This document shows, piece by piece, positions 12,593 to 23,199 of a stretch of 46,460 bases of DNA; the stretch's first letter is position 1, and each line of letters starts with the position of its first letter. Under the pieces are notes generated by a model, which did not search any database, was not told the DNA's origin, and worked only from the letters and a program-made list of their open reading frames with translations. The position numbers and the translations under genes were made by a program. Source of the DNA: an uncultured Alphaproteobacteria bacterium (GTDB taxonomy: Bacteria; Pseudomonadota; Alphaproteobacteria; UBA7985; CAJQQZ01); the NCBI GenBank assembly GCA_905480575.1, contig CAJQQZ010000033.1, forward strand, positions 1-46,460, written 5' to 3'.

Positions 12593-13066
12593 ATGGCCGA
12601 AACAAAAAAAGAAGCACAAGCAGCGACAAAACAATCCTCACAGGAAACTGAAGGTCAGAGCCTTTTGCAGATCCGCGAGTTGCTTTTCGGGGAACAACAA
12701 AGGCAACATGAGCAAGGTTTTGACAAGCTGAACCAATCACTTAGCGAGCTAGAAGGGCGTCTTTCTGCCGCCAAGTCAGAGTTAGAGACTGCGCTCAAGC
12801 AAGCAAGCGAGATGGCTAGTCGCGACCTCAGTCAGGTCGAGAAAAGAGCGGAAACGTCTCTTGCCGCCCAGCAAAAATCCATGATGAGTATGCATGAGTC
12901 TCTGGACCGTGACACAGCGGGTTTAAGGGAAGATCATAATCAGGCTGTGGATAGTATCGCAGAGCAATTGTCTTTGATCAGAGATCAGCTTGAAAATGAG
13001 CAACAGAAGCGACGTCATTTGGCGAATGCTCTGAAAGCTTTAGCGGAGGGGTTGGTAGACGACTGA
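12593..13066 (+). CDS. Cytoplasmic coiled-coil protein, first gene of GTPase operon
   Basis: 157 residues from ATG 12593, with AAGG 8 bases upstream; the earlier in-frame start at 12542 lacks a site. There is no signal peptide or membrane segment. After a Gln/Ser/Thr-rich tail comes a short motif IRELLFGEQ (about 27-35), then an almost continuous predicted coiled coil (about 40-150) rich in Glu, Gln, Lys, Leu and Ala. From memory this resembles an uncharacterised family that begins with a LFG motif followed by F-x-x-L-x-x-x-L-x-x-L-E. The IRELLFG motif recurs as LRELILG near the start of the next protein. It lies 30 bases upstream of that gene, so co-transcription is likely. Function unknown; scaffold or effector of the GTPase is inference. 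Confidence 0.75.
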   Translation: MAETKKEAQAATKQSSQETEGQSLLQIRELLFGEQQRQHEQGFDKLNQSLSELEGRLSAAKSELETALKQASEMASRDLSQVEKRAETSLAAQQKSMMSMHESLDRDTAGLREDHNQAVDSIAEQLSLIRDQLENEQQKRRHLANALKALAEGLVDD

Positions 13067-13096
13067 ATTTGATCGCTGATCAGCGAAAGTCAATCT

Positions 13097-15172
13097 ATGG
13101 CAACTCAACCAACAAACCTTAGTCCTGTAGAAGAGCTCCGGGAACTGATTCTCGGGCGCGAGCGTTTGGATATCCAAACGTTGAAAGATCGATTAGGACA
13201 AGTTGAAAGTAAGTTCTCTTCCCCAGAAGCCTTTGAACACGAAGTCTCTCAGGTATTCTCAGGGGCTTTGAAGGCAGCGTCTGGCGCAGAGCGTCAGCGG
13301 TTGGTGACTATTCTTTCTGGCTTATTGTCTAGTTCTGTTCGTCAAGAAATTAAGCTAGCACAGCCCGAAATTTTGGATGCACTCTATCCAGCCGCGTCGC
13401 AATTGGTTGCAGAGGGTATCAGAGCTTCGTTTAGAGATCTCAAGAAGTCGATAGAAAAACAAATAGCAGCAAGACTGTCGATTTTTCAGGCTCTTAAAGT
13501 TAAGGCCAAAGCCATGATGACTGGCAGGTCAGAGGCCGAGATTTGGCTGGAAGTCAACCCGCCTTTTGATATCGAACAAGCCTTAGTCATTCATAAACAA
13601 TCTGGATTGTTGATCGCTAGTTATCAAAACCAATCAGACGATGAGCTTGAGGGCGGTGGAGACACCACTCACGACCCTGATTTAGTCAGCGCGATGTTGA
13701 CTGCCATCATGGGGTTTGCCAAGGACGCTATGTCAGAAGACAGCACTGGTGAACTGACGTCACTTGAGTTTGCAGATGGCGTGTTGCTTATCCAATCTTC
13801 TTCTTCGGTCATTCTGGCGTTAAAGGTAAAAGGCCACCCGTCCGAGGAATTCCGTGATTGCTTCAGTACAGAATTTCATTCTTTTGTGCGGAGTTGGAGC
13901 GGTAGCCTAGCGACATTTGACGGTGAATTGGAAAAGGAAGAAGAGACAGAGATCAACGTTGGCTTGGAAGCACTTATTGATCGGTTAGAAACAAACGTTG
14001 AACGACCTGCAGCGAGATCTGAAAAGAAGAGCAGGGGAACAATGCGATTTGTCCTCTTGGCCTTCTTGTTTGTTATGGTCGTTGTCGGCGCATTTTACAT
14101 CATACTCGATTGGTGGCGCGACCGTATCGTTGATCAGGCTCAAGAAACGATTTATTCCACTGCTTCTGTCACGGGGTATCCCCTAACCGCTAGTTACGAC
14201 GACGAATTTAATCTTATTCGCGTTATCGGTATTGTACCAACACGTTTTGTCGCCGAAGAATTACGCGAAAATCTCCGCCGGAGTTTAGGGGGGAGAGAAG
14301 TTAGCTTTAATCTGCGTGTCTTACACGATGAATTGGTTGCTCAAACGGCAAGAGAGCAAACAGCTCTCATGGTGACCAACAGCCGCGGCGTTAAGAAGTT
14401 GGAGACCGCCATTTCGCTGCTAAGACGAGAAATCCAAAAATTTGACGCTGAATTGGCTGATGGCCGATTTGAAGACGGTCTACGCAAAGGATTTGCTGAA
14501 GATTTGGCCACAATGGGTAATCGTATCGGTCAGATGGAACGTTTCATTGCAGAAGCCGACGGATTGAGAATTCCAGCGGTTGGGCCGGTACAAGTCGAGC
14601 CTGACGAGGAAACGATACCGGATCCGTTCACGGAAACAGTTTCGGTTGATAGTCTCAGTCTAGAAGAAATAAATCATCAGCTCCTCAATGCTGAGGAAGC
14701 GTCGTGCCGTGATCTTTTGACAGAGTTTGTCCAAGCCGGGCTAGACAATGCGTTTGTGCAAGCAGCTCTCAATACTACCGGGGATCAGTTCTCCTTGAGT
14801 CCGCTTGATTTTGAAGGGTTAGCGCGATGCTCCACTTTTGAGTTTGATCGTCAAGGACAGCTTTACGACGAAGCAAAAGCAAAGAAGATTATCGATGCAC
14901 TTGCGGGTAAAGCCTGGGGAGAGCTGGGTGAAAGAACCCTAGAAATCAGAGCCTACGTTCAGCTCTATCGTGAAGAGACGGAAAATCGACATTTTGCAGA
15001 ACGTATAGCAGGTGACATTCAAAAGCGCCTCCTCGCCAAGGGCATTCCAGCAGAATGGGTGAAAATCACTCCTATAATTGCTGATCAACAGCGTGTGGGG
15101 AACGGAAGTTCTTGGAGAACGTCAGATTTCGTATATTTTGGATTGATGGATAAAAACCAAGAATCTGAATAG
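13097..15172 (+). CDS. Membrane protein with Roadblock-like cytoplasmic region and OmpA-like periplasmic domain
   Basis: 691 residues. Residues 14-20 carry LRELILG. Residues about 157-248 read like a Roadblock/LC7 domain: ALVIHKQSGLLIASY, then DPDLVSAMLTAIMGFAKDA, a strand pair with GVLLIQSS, and ILALKVKG. One transmembrane helix lies at about 317-338. The periplasmic part has a BON-like stretch (about 347-410), a coiled coil (about 430-485) and an OmpA-like end (about 582-685: FEFDRQGQLYDEAKAKKI, LEIRAYVQ, ERIAGDIQKRLLAKGI), lacking some canonical peptidoglycan-binding residues. It sits 2 bases before a small GTPase. Roadblock proteins act as GTPase regulators (MglB with MglA), so a membrane regulator or receptor for the GTPase is the natural inference. 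Domain calls are by eye. Confidence 0.8.
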   Translation: MATQPTNLSPVEELRELILGRERLDIQTLKDRLGQVESKFSSPEAFEHEVSQVFSGALKAASGAERQRLVTILSGLLSSSVRQEIKLAQPEILDALYPAASQLVAEGIRASFRDLKKSIEKQIAARLSIFQALKVKAKAMMTGRSEAEIWLEVNPPFDIEQALVIHKQSGLLIASYQNQSDDELEGGGDTTHDPDLVSAMLTAIMGFAKDAMSEDSTGELTSLEFADGVLLIQSSSSVILALKVKGHPSEEFRDCFSTEFHSFVRSWSGSLATFDGELEKEEETEINVGLEALIDRLETNVERPAARSEKKSRGTMRFVLLAFLFVMVVVGAFYIILDWWRDRIVDQAQETIYSTASVTGYPLTASYDDEFNLIRVIGIVPTRFVAEELRENLRRSLGGREVSFNLRVLHDELVAQTAREQTALMVTNSRGVKKLETAISLLRREIQKFDAELADGRFEDGLRKGFAEDLATMGNRIGQMERFIAEADGLRIPAVGPVQVEPDEETIPDPFTETVSVDSLSLEEINHQLLNAEEASCRDLLTEFVQAGLDNAFVQAALNTTGDQFSLSPLDFEGLARCSTFEFDRQGQLYDEAKAKKIIDALAGKAWGELGERTLEIRAYVQLYREETENRHFAERIAGDIQKRLLAKGIPAEWVKITPIIADQQRVGNGSSWRTSDFVYFGLMDKNQESE

Positions 15173-15174
15173 CT

Positions 15175-15687
15175 TTGTCCAAAGCAAAAAAAATCTGTGT
15201 GCTCGGTGAATTTGCAGTCGGTAAGACTTCGTTAACCCGTCGCTATGTCCTAAACTCTTTCTCACCTGATTATCAAGCAACGCTTGGCGTGAGCCTCTAC
15301 AAGGCAACTGCAAACCTCCAACGGGGAGAAGAAGTTGCTTTAGTACTGTGGGATGTTGAGGGCGGAGAATATAGAGCCTCTGCACTCGACCGTTATGTTC
15401 CAGGCGCGAGTGGTGCTTTTTTGGTGAGCGATGTAACAAGGCCCAAGTCTGTCGAGGCTTTGTCCTTTTTTGCTGAACGGTTTCAAAGCCTCTCACCTGG
15501 TTGCCCGATGGTGTTTGCTGCGAACAAAGTGGATTTAGCACACCAAGAGGAGACGGTTAATCTAGCTCGAGATATCGCAAAAACGTTTGATGCATCGCTG
15601 ATGGAAACCAGTGCCGCTGACGGTACTGCGGTACCCGAAGCATTCTCAAGTCTCGCTAATGAAATTTACTTGAGAGCTGAAGGATGA
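15175..15687 (+). CDS. Rab/Ras-like small GTPase
   Basis: 170 residues, a single G domain. G1 is GEFAVGKTS (11-19), the switch I Thr lies in QATLGVS, G3 is WDVEGGE (D60 to E65), G4 is NKVD (117-120) and G5 is TSA (145-147). The Ras Gln61 position is Gly64 and the Gly12 position is Phe13, so intrinsic GTP hydrolysis should differ from Ras. There is no C-terminal prenylation Cys. The start is TTG at 15175, only 2 bases after the upstream stop, and G1 follows within 10 residues, so no other start fits. The stop overlaps the kinase start (ATGA). It is most like the bacterial Rab-type GTPases carrying GxFxVGKTSL; a role as a switch between the membrane protein and the kinase is inferred. Confidence 0.88.
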   Translation: MSKAKKICVLGEFAVGKTSLTRRYVLNSFSPDYQATLGVSLYKATANLQRGEEVALVLWDVEGGEYRASALDRYVPGASGAFLVSDVTRPKSVEALSFFAERFQSLSPGCPMVFAANKVDLAHQEETVNLARDIAKTFDASLMETSAADGTAVPEAFSSLANEIYLRAEG

Positions 15688-16829
15688 CTAAAACATCACC
15701 AGGCCCTTTAGCGACAAGTCATTTATTACTTTCGTTGGAAAGAGGTGAGTTCTCGGCATTTTCGATCAGTGAAGCGGGGTTTGTTTTATCTCGCGAAGGC
15801 CATTTGTTCCCTGGGCTAAAGATCGGTTCGTTGGCCGTTGACACGTTGTTCTTTCTGGACGGTTTAGAGATGACAATCGAAGCATTGTTGGCGAACGAGC
15901 TTGCAAGCTTCAAATTGCCCAATGTTCGCATGATGGTGTCCGAGAAGATTGAACGGGATTATACGTTTGAGCTAACCTCTTCCCCGGGAAAAGATGGCAA
16001 TCAATTCTGTGTGTACGTTTGGGATGTGACTGAAACCGCTATCGCTCAACAGGCTATTGTCCATCGACATAACAGTGTCAACTTGGAGAACGAACGCCTG
16101 GAAGAAGAAAAGGTCAACACAGAAGAGTTGATGCGCAGCCAATCGCATTTCTTGGCCAATATTAGCCATGAGTTGCGCACACCCCTTACGCTGGCATTGG
16201 GCAATTGCGATCTGTTACGGGATCAAACCGTCTATTTGGATGAACAAGCGAGGAATTCTTGTTTAACTGATATTCGTGACAACGCAGAAGAGCTGTTGGG
16301 CTTTGTGTCCGATCTACTTGACTACTCAAAAATTGATGCTGAGAACTTGGTTCTCATTGATGAAACGGTTGATGTAGGCGCCGAACTGGACCGCTTGACC
16401 CAGCAATTCCGCCGCGATGCTCTTGACCGGAGGCTGAGTTTGAAGTCGCAAGTTCCACCGACGCCAATCAAGTTGAGAGCTGAGCGGCGGCGCATTCGGC
16501 AAATTTTAACGAATTTGTTGACTAATGCCTTGAAATTCACCCCCAAGGGTGGGACCGTTTCTCTTGGTGTGACGGACAAAGAAAATGGTATAGCTTTATT
16601 TGTGAAAGACACGGGTCTCGGTTTAACAGCCGACGAAATGGCCCAAATCGGCAAACCTTTCATTAAATTTGAAAAACATCCTTTGCACAACCAGTTGGAA
16701 TCAAACGGTTTAGGACTAGCTCTGACAAAGAAACTCATAGAAGCTCATGACGGTGAAATGGTTGTGCAAAGCAATGTCGGAGAGGGAACCCATGTGACGG
16801 CTCTGTTTCCAAAAGAGAGGAGACTTTAG
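15684..16829 (+). CDS. Soluble sensor histidine kinase with PAS-like N-terminal domain
   Basis: 381 residues, no transmembrane helix. Residues about 10-115 look PAS-like (FSISEAGFVLSREG, later VYVWDVTETAIAQQA, a typical PAS exit). A helical linker leads to HisKA with FLANISHELRTPL (phospho-acceptor His162). HATPase_c has N-box RQILTNLLTNALKFTP, G1 DTGLGL, and G2 GLGLALTKKLIEAHDG. No receiver domain and no response regulator gene are seen nearby, so it is an orphan kinase genetically tied to the GTPase, whose stop it overlaps (ATGA). Input through the GTPase rather than a ligand is an attractive but untested idea. Confidence 0.9.
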   Translation: MTKTSPGPLATSHLLLSLERGEFSAFSISEAGFVLSREGHLFPGLKIGSLAVDTLFFLDGLEMTIEALLANELASFKLPNVRMMVSEKIERDYTFELTSSPGKDGNQFCVYVWDVTETAIAQQAIVHRHNSVNLENERLEEEKVNTEELMRSQSHFLANISHELRTPLTLALGNCDLLRDQTVYLDEQARNSCLTDIRDNAEELLGFVSDLLDYSKIDAENLVLIDETVDVGAELDRLTQQFRRDALDRRLSLKSQVPPTPIKLRAERRRIRQILTNLLTNALKFTPKGGTVSLGVTDKENGIALFVKDTGLGLTADEMAQIGKPFIKFEKHPLHNQLESNGLGLALTKKLIEAHDGEMVVQSNVGEGTHVTALFPKERRL

Positions 16830-20479: not shown

Positions 20480-20527
20480 AGAGACCATTGATAAGTGGTT
20501 CTCGACTTTGAACCGAAAGGTAATGAA

Positions 20528-20878
20528 TTGAAGGATGCTCCTTTGATCGCGTCTAACGATCCAAGACGACTGGATGACGGTGGCATTGGTCCCGGTGTTG
20601 TGCTTGAAGCCAAGCCCAAAACCAAGAAGCCAGCCATGTACAAAGTGTTGATGTTGAATGATGACTACACCCCCATGGAGTTCGTTGTTCATGTCTTGGA
20701 AATCTTTTTCAATAAAAGTGGAGAGGATGCGGCTCGTATCATGCTGCATGTTCACCAAAAGGGTGTCGGTATTTGTGGGGTTTTTACATTCGAAGTCGCC
20801 GAGACCAAAGTTACTCAAGTTATTGATTATGCAAGGAAGCACCAGCATCCATTGCAATGTACTTTAGAAAAAGAATAG
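20528..20878 (+). CDS. clpS: ClpS, ATP-dependent Clp protease adaptor
   Basis: 116 residues from TTG 20528, which has AAAGG 7 bases upstream. GTG 20495 is in frame and would add 11 residues but lacks a good ribosome site, so the start is uncertain. The ClpS core is unmistakable: [20 protein letters not shown], then [23 protein letters not shown] and the C-terminal [14 protein letters not shown]. ClpS binds the ClpA N-domain and delivers N-degron substrates; the NDDYTPMEF segment and MLHVH form the N-end residue pocket. clpA follows 35 bases downstream. Confidence 0.93.
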
Positions 20879-20913
20879 GGGCCCTGGGTCCAATGTTCAT
20901 GGTAGAGAAATAA

Positions 20914-23199
20914 ATGTTATCTAATAATTTAGAACAAACCCTTCATAGAGCGATTGGTTACGCCGGTCAGCATGGGCATGAATTCTGTACGCTTGAGCAT
21001 TTGTTGCTCGCAATGATCGAAGATCCTGATGCCGCCGCCGTTATGCGTGCTTGCGACGTTGACTTGGGCGAACTTGGTCAGGAAGTTGCCGCCTATATCG
21101 AGTTTGAGCTCAAAGGCATTGTTTCAGAAACCGATGAGGACCCTAAGCCAACAACGTCGTTTCAGCGCGTTTTACAACGCGCCGTTATACATGTTCAGTC
21201 ATCCGGTCGCGACGAAGTAACGGGCGCCAATCTTCTGGTGGCCATGTTCCAGGAACGTGAAAGCCATGCTGTCTATTTCTTACAGCAACGAGGCATGGGG
21301 CGCTTGGATGCCGTTAATTTCCTCAGCCATGGTATTGCAAAAATCTCCGGTCTTTCTGAAGAACGGCTGGTGACTGGCGCGGACTCAGAGTTTGAAGAAG
21401 ATATGGGAGACAACGGCCAAGAAGCGCTGGATGCCTACTGTGTCAACCTTAATCAAAAGGCCCTAGACGGGAAGATAGATATACTCATAGGGCGTGAGTT
21501 TGAAGTTGAACGAACCATTCAAATTCTCTGCCGTAGAAACAAGAACAATCCGTTGTATGTCGGTGACCCTGGTGTTGGCAAAACTGCCATAGCCGAGGGA
21601 TTGGCGAAGCGCATTGTTGACGGCGATGTACCGGAGGTGTTGAACAGTACGATTATCTTCTCGCTTGATATGGGCGCTTTGTTAGCGGGCACGCGTTATC
21701 GCGGCGACTTTGAAGAACGCTTGAAGGCAGTCATCAATGAGTTGGATGAAGTTGACGGCGGCGTGTTGTTCATCGATGAGATCCACACCATTATCGGCGC
21801 TGGGGCTACCAGTGGCGGGGCGATGGACGCCTCTAACCTGCTCAAACCTGCATTAGCGAGCGGGTCGATGCGTTGTATTGGATCAACGACTTACAAAGAA
21901 TATCGCGGGCATTTTGAAAAAGATCGCGCACTGGCGCGCCGTTTCCAGAAGATTGACGTTGAAGAGCCTTCTGTCGAAGACACAATCAAGATCTTGCGCG
22001 GTCTGAAACCATACTACGAAGAGCATCACAAAGTTCGCTATACGGCTGAGGCTCTAAGAACGGCTGTGGAGCTGGCAGCGCGTTACATTACAGATCGAAA
22101 ACTGCCTGACAAAGCTATCGACGTGATTGACGAAGCCGGTGCTTCGCAAATGCTGGTGCCCGAAAACAAACGTAAAAAAACCATCAGCGTTGGGGACATC
22201 GAAATTGTTGTTTCCAAGATGGCCAAGATTCCGCCAAAAACGGTTTCAAAAGACGACGTCTCAATGCTGAAGTCTCTTGAGCGAGACCTCAAGGCATTGG
22301 TCTACGGTCAGGATAAGGCCATAACGGCCTTATCTTCGGCGATTAAACTCGCCCGCGCTGGCCTGAGAGAACCTGAAAAGCCCATTGGCTCATATCTTTT
22401 CTCAGGGCCGACCGGTGTTGGTAAAACCGAAGTAGCGAAGCAGTTAGCCCAGGCTCTCGGGGTCGATCTTGTTCGTTTCGACATGTCGGAATACATGGAG
22501 CGCCATTCCGTCAGCCGTTTGATCGGTGCGCCACCAGGCTATGTTGGTTTTGATCAAGGTGGTTTGTTGACGGATTCGGTGGATCAAAAGAAACACTGCG
22601 TCTTGCTGCTGGACGAAATCGAAAAAGCACACCCGGATCTGTTCAATATCCTGTTGCAGGTGATGGACAACGGACGTTTGACTGACAACAATGGCAAAAC
22701 TGTCGACTTCCGCAACGTTATTTTGATCATGACAACCAACGCAGGGGCTGCTGACATGGCTAGACCTGCCATGGGCTTCACTCAAGAGAAGCGAACTGGG
22801 GACGACGAAGAGGCGATCCAGAAGCTCTTTGCACCAGAATTCCGCAATCGACTTGATGCCAACATCGCATTCGCATCCCTTGAACTGCCGGTCGTTCAGC
22901 GCATTGTCGATAAGTTTATCATGGAGTTGGAAACTCAATTAGCTGACCGTAATATTGCTATTGAATTGAGTGACGCCGCGAGGAATTATTTGGCCAAGAA
23001 GGGATACGACCCGTTGTATGGAGCGCGTCCGCTTTCCCGATTGATTCAGGAAAAAGTGAAAAAGTCATTGGCAGATGAAATCCTGTTTGGGCGTCTGTCG
23101 AAAGGCGGAACAGTGCGTGTGGACGAAACGGACGGTGAAATGACGTTCACCTATCCTGATTCTGAGGCCACCAAAGAAAAGGCTGTTGAGACAGTCTAA
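20914..23199 (+). CDS. clpA: ClpA, ATPase subunit of ClpAP protease
   Basis: 761 residues. The N-domain (1-145) for ClpS binding is followed by a short acidic linker. AAA+ module 1 has Walker A GDPGVGKT (217-224), Walker B VLFIDEIH, and the arginine-finger segment [13 protein letters not shown]+ module 2 has Walker A GPTGVGKT (498-505), [10 protein letters not shown] and the C-terminal [10 protein letters not shown] sensor 2. There is no ClpB-type middle coiled coil. It unfolds substrates for ClpP (not in this window), acting with ClpS encoded just upstream. Confidence 0.96.

Follow-up and report, generated by a model that had tools for sequence, protein, structure and literature searches.

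The closest described relative of the locus reported here is the 'Group 1 Rup' GTPase neighbourhood of Wuichet and Søgaard-Andersen (2014), a four-gene set in which a coiled-coil gene and a gene encoding an unknown domain, a transmembrane helix and an OmpA domain accompany a GTPase without the glutamine of the G3 motif and a kinase or GGDEF-EAL output (PMC4316618). Rup GTPases are the prokaryotic group closest to Rab, Ras and Rho (PMC4316618 and PMC4915359, both among the papers listed when the open-access literature was searched for the Rup name). The sections of PMC4316618 on which we draw already propose membrane signalling through these neighbourhoods and suggest that an invariant glutamine in the output protein replaces the missing G3 glutamine; they couple no Rup GTPase to MglB, and they give kinases and GGDEF-EAL proteins as typical outputs, with class III cyclases going unmentioned. 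The initial annotation of the DNA analysed here had stated that no defined pathway has such a composition, a statement overturned by those sections. No laboratory test of such cassettes was found in the open-access literature searched.

A different system, the actinobacterial conservons (CvnA–D), likewise holds a GTPase, a Roadblock protein and a histidine kinase in one operon. According to the sections of PMC13343842 cited here, however, the conservon GTPase is of the MglA family, the Roadblock protein is a free-standing GAP of the MglB type and a sensor kinase provides the input, whereas our locus combines a Rup-type GTPase, a soluble kinase and a Roadblock/longin domain predicted to lie inside a membrane receptor. 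MglA and MglB also pair a Ras-like GTPase with a Roadblock protein, and the best fold matches of our membrane protein include MglB; yet MglB is detected by Robl_LC7 models and our protein is not. In eukaryotes, TRAPP, Mon1–Ccz1 and Fuzzy–Inturned are longin/Roadblock exchange factors for Rab proteins. The best 60 of the 677 PDB sequences matched by GTPases of this kind at E values up to 1e-10 are all Rab-family proteins, with Rab23 first, and the fold list of the membrane protein includes the Rab23 partner Fuzzy. Eukaryotic Rab systems, however, have neither a transmembrane receptor nor a histidine kinase, and the likeness is one of fold and family only.

The locus lies in a window of 46,460 nucleotides, the whole stretch of DNA analysed, from an uncultured alphaproteobacterium whose genome is assembled as 4.03 Mb in 189 contigs (GCA_905480575.1). 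Four genes on the same strand encode a coiled-coil-type protein (CC), a membrane protein (MEM), a GTPase and a histidine kinase (HK; Table 1), and we reproduced both their coordinates and their junctions as first annotated, namely gaps of 30 and then 2 bases, followed by a 4-base ATGA overlap. A promoter and terminator scan of the cassette gave nothing above shuffle level, which leaves gene spacing and conserved order as the only grounds for co-transcription. Across 35 genomes, 36 loci repeat this gene order, and the grouping is more than chance. The cassette is flanked on its 5′ side, on the opposite strand, by an AsmA-family gene and a SapC gene, and on its 3′ side by a molybdopterin oxidoreductase gene and a phosphomannomutase-type gene. 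The downstream gene order, judged by gene size, is matched in the sister genome L017 and is absent from remoter cassettes, so we regard the flanking genes as neighbours rather than cassette parts. No response regulator was found by Pfam among the scanned neighbours. At 20495–23199 of the window, a look at the sequence shows a ClpS-like gene and, after it, one for a ClpA-like ATPase, an ordinary pair.

Table 1 Features of the cassette in window coordinates
Feature	Position	Strand	Description
CC, first cassette gene	12593..13066	+	157 aa; soluble, coiled-coil-type; without hydrophobic stretch
CC residues 24-39	12662..12709	+	Motif LLQIRELLFGEQQRQH, common to MEM N-terminus
MEM	13097..15172	+	691 aa; helical N-terminus, predicted Roadblock/longin domain, TM helix, periplasmic part, OmpA-like end
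MEM residues 11-26	13127..13174	+	Motif VEELRELILGRERLDI; CC-motif score reached by 2/1000 shuffles
MEM residues ~158-272	13568..13912	+	Predicted Roadblock/longin-type domain; secondary structure, fold matches, weak sequence matches
MEM residues 312-341	14030..14119	+	Predicted TM helix; one strong hydrophobic stretch
MEM residues 361-408	14177..14320	+	Small beta-beta-alpha-beta periplasmic unit; secondary structure of model
MEM residues ~580-685	14834..15151	+	OmpA/Pal-like domain by fold match; without Asp/Arg pair
GTPase	15175..15687	+	170 aa, TTG start; Rab-like, Rup type, without G3 Gln
HK	15684..16829	+	381 aa; soluble kinase: N-terminal domain (~residues 1-150), HisKA, HATPase_c
HK His127	16062..16064	+	Gln in 26/30 outputs with a letter there

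The window is a variant of this described signalling cassette, known here from its sequence. We assign it to Group 1 Rup by the partial published description rather than by its place in the Rup tree: the G3 aspartate is kept, the G3 glutamine is absent, and coiled-coil, DUF-TM-OmpA and output genes lie beside the GTPase. It departs from that description in its worn OmpA domain and in HK, where His127 stands in place of the invariant output glutamine, if, as we infer, the two sites are the same. Our survey differs from the earlier account in two further ways, in that the unknown domain is now assigned, from structural models, to the Roadblock/longin superfamily and class III cyclases often provide the output (in 13 of 37 loci).

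Among relatives of the source genome, the window protein used as query found MEM in 6 of 61. Across 385 genomes of the class, the GTPase was present at E values up to 1e-20 in seven, all of which belong to the nine with a MEM match starting in the N-terminal part (at least nine of 385); most of the 255 genomes matched by MEM match in the OmpA part only. In a draw of 398 genomes from the phylum, the MEM cytoplasmic region was found in 50, the GTPase in 49 and both in 47, a co-occurrence inflated by the relatedness of the genomes. MEM occurred without the GTPase in G080, G419 and G619, and the GTPase without MEM in G540 and G631. For the neighbourhood survey, 26 of the 50 MEM-positive phylum genomes and nine others gave 36 MEM loci in 35 genomes, a sample chosen for MEM; with L008, where MEM is cut by the contig end, the set comprises 37 loci. 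A coiled-coil gene lies just upstream of MEM on the same strand in all 36 loci, partly by construction, because the gene was picked by the motif [IVL]R-x-[IVL][ILV][FVL]G in 35 of them; in L113, which has lysine in place of the arginine, it was recognized by eye. The GTPase lies downstream of MEM in 34 of the 36 loci, at spacings of −139 to 167 bases (the gene is broken in L118, and in L126 the end of the contig truncates it), and six-frame searches of L116 and L127 found no GTPase at the locus. No other part of the cassette is as constant as the MEM–GTPase pair. In L024 and L127, the latter lacking a GTPase in the locus, two MEM genes flank the coiled-coil gene.

The initial annotation expected a conserved neighbourhood, and the survey agrees in that the GTPase, the membrane protein and an output enzyme stay together; its expectation of a GTPase–kinase linkage was borne out for the output slot, in which a kinase is only one of several enzyme types. 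Among the 37 loci, the slot holds a class III cyclase in 13, a kinase in 12, a GGDEF-EAL protein in three and a kinase-like remnant in three, and no output enzyme was found in the other six. Eleven kinases follow the GTPase, two of them hybrids with a receiver (L119 and L123). The twelfth, in L108, is convergent: a LuxR-type response regulator is followed there by a HisKA_3 kinase that bears the cassette N-terminal domain. LuxR-type regulators convergent to the GTPase are present in both L108 (4179–6288) and L109 (8211–8873). The remnants of L018 and L019, from the window's order, have lost the Pfam kinase domain, with no Pfam match at E values up to 0.01, and retain the N-terminal domain; that of L020 is cut. 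A convergent HAMP-HisKA kinase in L019 (3958–6029) and an OmpR-type regulator in L018 (9783–11872) adjoin these remnant-kinase cassettes.

HK itself matches HisKA and HATPase_c above the Pfam cut-offs and is soluble, as annotated, but the PAS domain it was credited with was not confirmed, as no PAS model matched its N terminus. The best match of the N-terminal domain profile to PDB sequences was 3fg8_A (E = 0.16), which we take to be a PAS domain. A profile of seven kinase N termini, searched against 2295 open reading frames, matched 12 of the 13 cyclases (E = 3e-7 to 0.034), the remnants and one of the three GGDEF-EAL proteins (E = 0.003); it missed the kinase of L111 and the cyclase of L117, and gave a weak match outside the output position in L107 (E = 0.029). 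The reverse profile, made from cyclases, matched four kinases (E = 1.9e-14 to 0.049), HK not among them, and a profile of GGDEF-EAL N termini matched no kinase or cyclase. By these sequence matches, kinases and cyclases have the N-terminal domain in common, and its presence in GGDEF-EAL proteins is only suggested.

The GTPase of the window carries all five G motifs that had been read in it (G1, GEFAVGKT; G2, Thr36; G3, WDVEGG; G4, NKVD; G5, SAA), scores 100.8 bits with Pfam Ras and is the sole Ras-family match in its genome. MglA lacks the G3 aspartate, according to the sections cited of PMC4316618; the window GTPase keeps it and by that criterion is not of the MglA family. GTPases encoded beside Robl_LC7 genes scored 16.8–27.0 bits with the cassette GTPase profile, against at least 125.6 bits for complete cassette GTPases. 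In a tree of 33 GTPases, that of the window joins L017 and then alphaproteobacterial cassettes with kinases, remnants or no output. Output types require six changes on this tree, where the minimum is four and the shuffled mean 17.4, with L108, despite its convergent kinase, labelled 'none'; so few changes indicate that outputs follow GTPase descent and that few swaps are needed.

The initial annotation placed a Roadblock domain at MEM residues 157–248 and proposed profile searches and structure prediction against Roadblock/LC7 as a check. The predicted fold agrees with this assignment, with boundaries nearer 158–272, whereas Pfam and hhalign did not bear it out. The full-length AlphaFold model, built from 11 sequences, has poor overall confidence (pLDDT 61.7, pTM 0.29); in it, residues 146–272 form a helix, two strands, a helix, three strands and a helix, and Foldseek matched the model to OmpA/Pal structures as well as to TRAPP, Mon1–Ccz1, MglB and Roadblock chains. 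A domain-only model (39 sequences) has medium confidence (pLDDT 77.2, pTM 0.63) and the same order of elements. Its Foldseek E values are modest, with one match below 0.001: the best is 6u62_H (8.8e-4), and MglB 6h5b_B reached 3.0e-3. Four of the best 50 rows are axonemal-assembly chains not named in the titles, and we take the other 46 to be Roadblock proteins, MglB, Ragulator/MP1-p14, Ego3, TRAPP, AP sigma or complexes holding such subunits. VIA gave Z scores of 10.8 to Asgard Roadblock3 (2.3 Å, 101 residues aligned), 10.8 to Fuzzy and 10.4 to MglB 6hjm_Q (2.4 Å, 103 aligned); the 50 rows listed (Z = 10.8 to 8.8) are presumably all proteins or complexes holding Roadblock or longin domains.

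The domain profile, searched against PDB sequences at E values up to 10, found three matches, none significant alone: 9jue_D (Roadblock, 0.063), 7ea3_D (TRAPP BET5, 0.38) and 7f8f_A (Robl_LC7, 0.97). The Pfam model Robl_LC7 (PF03259) matched nothing in the window's genome and none of the 39 domain members at E values up to 10, other families appearing as scattered singles or pairs. Aligned by hhalign with 17 canonical Roadblock sequences (from 19 loci minus two), the domain reached a probability of 7% (E = 0.005), against 0.3% (E = 0.18) for an unrelated control. Taken together, the models make it likely that the domain belongs to the Roadblock/longin superfamily, in which Roadblock and longin proteins, both present in the fold lists, are indistinguishable as matches. 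This identity is a new and testable claim; we found no earlier notice of it in the open-access literature searched. The shared fold in itself shows no function.

We lean towards the view that the locus is a variant Group 1 Rup cassette in which MEM, as an inner-membrane receptor, would dock the Rab-like GTPase at the membrane through its cytoplasmic Roadblock/longin domain and set its nucleotide state, and the GTP-bound switch would act on the N-terminal domain of the output, a histidine kinase here and a class III cyclase or GGDEF-EAL protein elsewhere. The proposal draws on gene order, GTPase type, the fold of the MEM model, the domain common to kinases and cyclases and the motif that CC shares with MEM; from these we infer every contact, including that of the GTPase with the Roadblock/longin domain, as well as the stimulus and which way the signal travels. 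The two loci in which MEM lacks a GTPase and the six in which no output was found speak against this scheme. MglB acts by positioning the intrinsic glutamine of its GTPase. The cassette GTPases lack this glutamine, so MglB-type GAP action is less likely, and MEM may rather act by exchange or recruitment. Roadblock subunits in Ragulator, however, are a dimerization scaffold, and the best fold matches of the MEM domain include Ragulator subunits; that the domain is such a scaffold only, and does not touch the nucleotide state of the GTPase, is unlikely but the best placed of the alternatives, and it sits poorly with the constancy of the MEM–GTPase pair (34 of 36 loci).

The missing glutamine bears on a second alternative, in which the N-terminal domain of the output supplies a catalytic glutamine in trans and so regulates the GTPase, and MEM only anchors the complex. 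The residue after DxxG is not glutamine in the window GTPase or in any of the 33 readable GTPases (of 35), and among 31 outputs the best-conserved glutamine site of the N-terminal region holds glutamine in 26 (of the 30 with a letter there; one has a gap). On the other hand, histidine in the window and L017, arginine in L108 and alanine in L110 mean that glutamine is not strictly required, and the Roadblock/longin fold would be left without a role; we find this reading doubtful. Histidine may serve as a catalytic residue, as in EF-Tu. The output-glutamine idea may either fail in some lineages or allow histidine to stand in.

Beyond its single strong hydrophobic stretch, the one membrane helix that had been annotated, MEM has a unit that by eye we take to be BON-like and, towards its end, the OmpA-like domain. 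The annotated OmpA likeness stands by fold, with Pal and OmpA matches (4g4w, E = 3.7e-4), and the Pfam OmpA score of 13.0 bits is under the cut-off of 27.2. The initial annotation had this end sense the state of the cell wall by binding peptidoglycan. Asp271 and Arg286 of Acinetobacter baumannii OmpA bind diaminopimelate, according to the section cited of PMC5974059; both residues are kept in 24 of 38 MEM sequences, which together with the fold speaks for binding. They are replaced by glutamine and isoleucine in the window and L017, which makes direct peptidoglycan sensing by the window protein doubtful; an arginine lies one position off the expected site, and a shifted alignment is possible. 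Three other loci of the window's order (L018–L020) have arginine at the aspartate site and isoleucine or methionine at the arginine site. Nine further MEM sequences lack the aligned aspartate, some through an alignment gap, and its loss is not special to the window's genus. The annotated claim is weakened accordingly, and we consider peptidoglycan sensing improbable. Least probable of all is that the Roadblock match arose as an artefact of modelling and the MEM domain has some other mixed alpha/beta fold: Pfam was negative, hhalign weak and model confidence medium, but the models built on two different alignments, one of 11 and one of 39 rows, gave one element order, and the fold and PDB-sequence searches point to one superfamily.

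If MEM does regulate the GTPase as we propose, the Roadblock/longin domain in its constant neighbour is a named, testable candidate regulator of Rup GTPases, and one switch module would be coupled to kinases, cyclic-nucleotide enzymes and c-di-GMP enzymes. A wider and rather unlikely extension is that bacterial Rab relatives come with a membrane-anchored Roadblock/longin regulator in their operon, a bacterial counterpart of the Rab–longin partnership with exchangeable enzymes. If this were true, the partnership used in eukaryotic membrane traffic would have a bacterial counterpart and might share descent with it.

CC matches no Pfam family above cut-off, and its sequence reads as a putative coiled coil. 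A 16-residue profile of its motif, built from 28 distinct CC windows, placed 20 of 38 MEM N termini at or above a score that no more than 10 in 1,000 shuffles attained, and the other 18 below it. A simple reading of this sharing is that CC and MEM have a common partner or co-assemble, and in the proposed scheme CC would probably dock on the partner of MEM or assemble with MEM itself. In L025, L026, L106 and L125, a C-terminal CC motif, DR..LA.LF.E.A..L, recurs by eye near the MEM N terminus.
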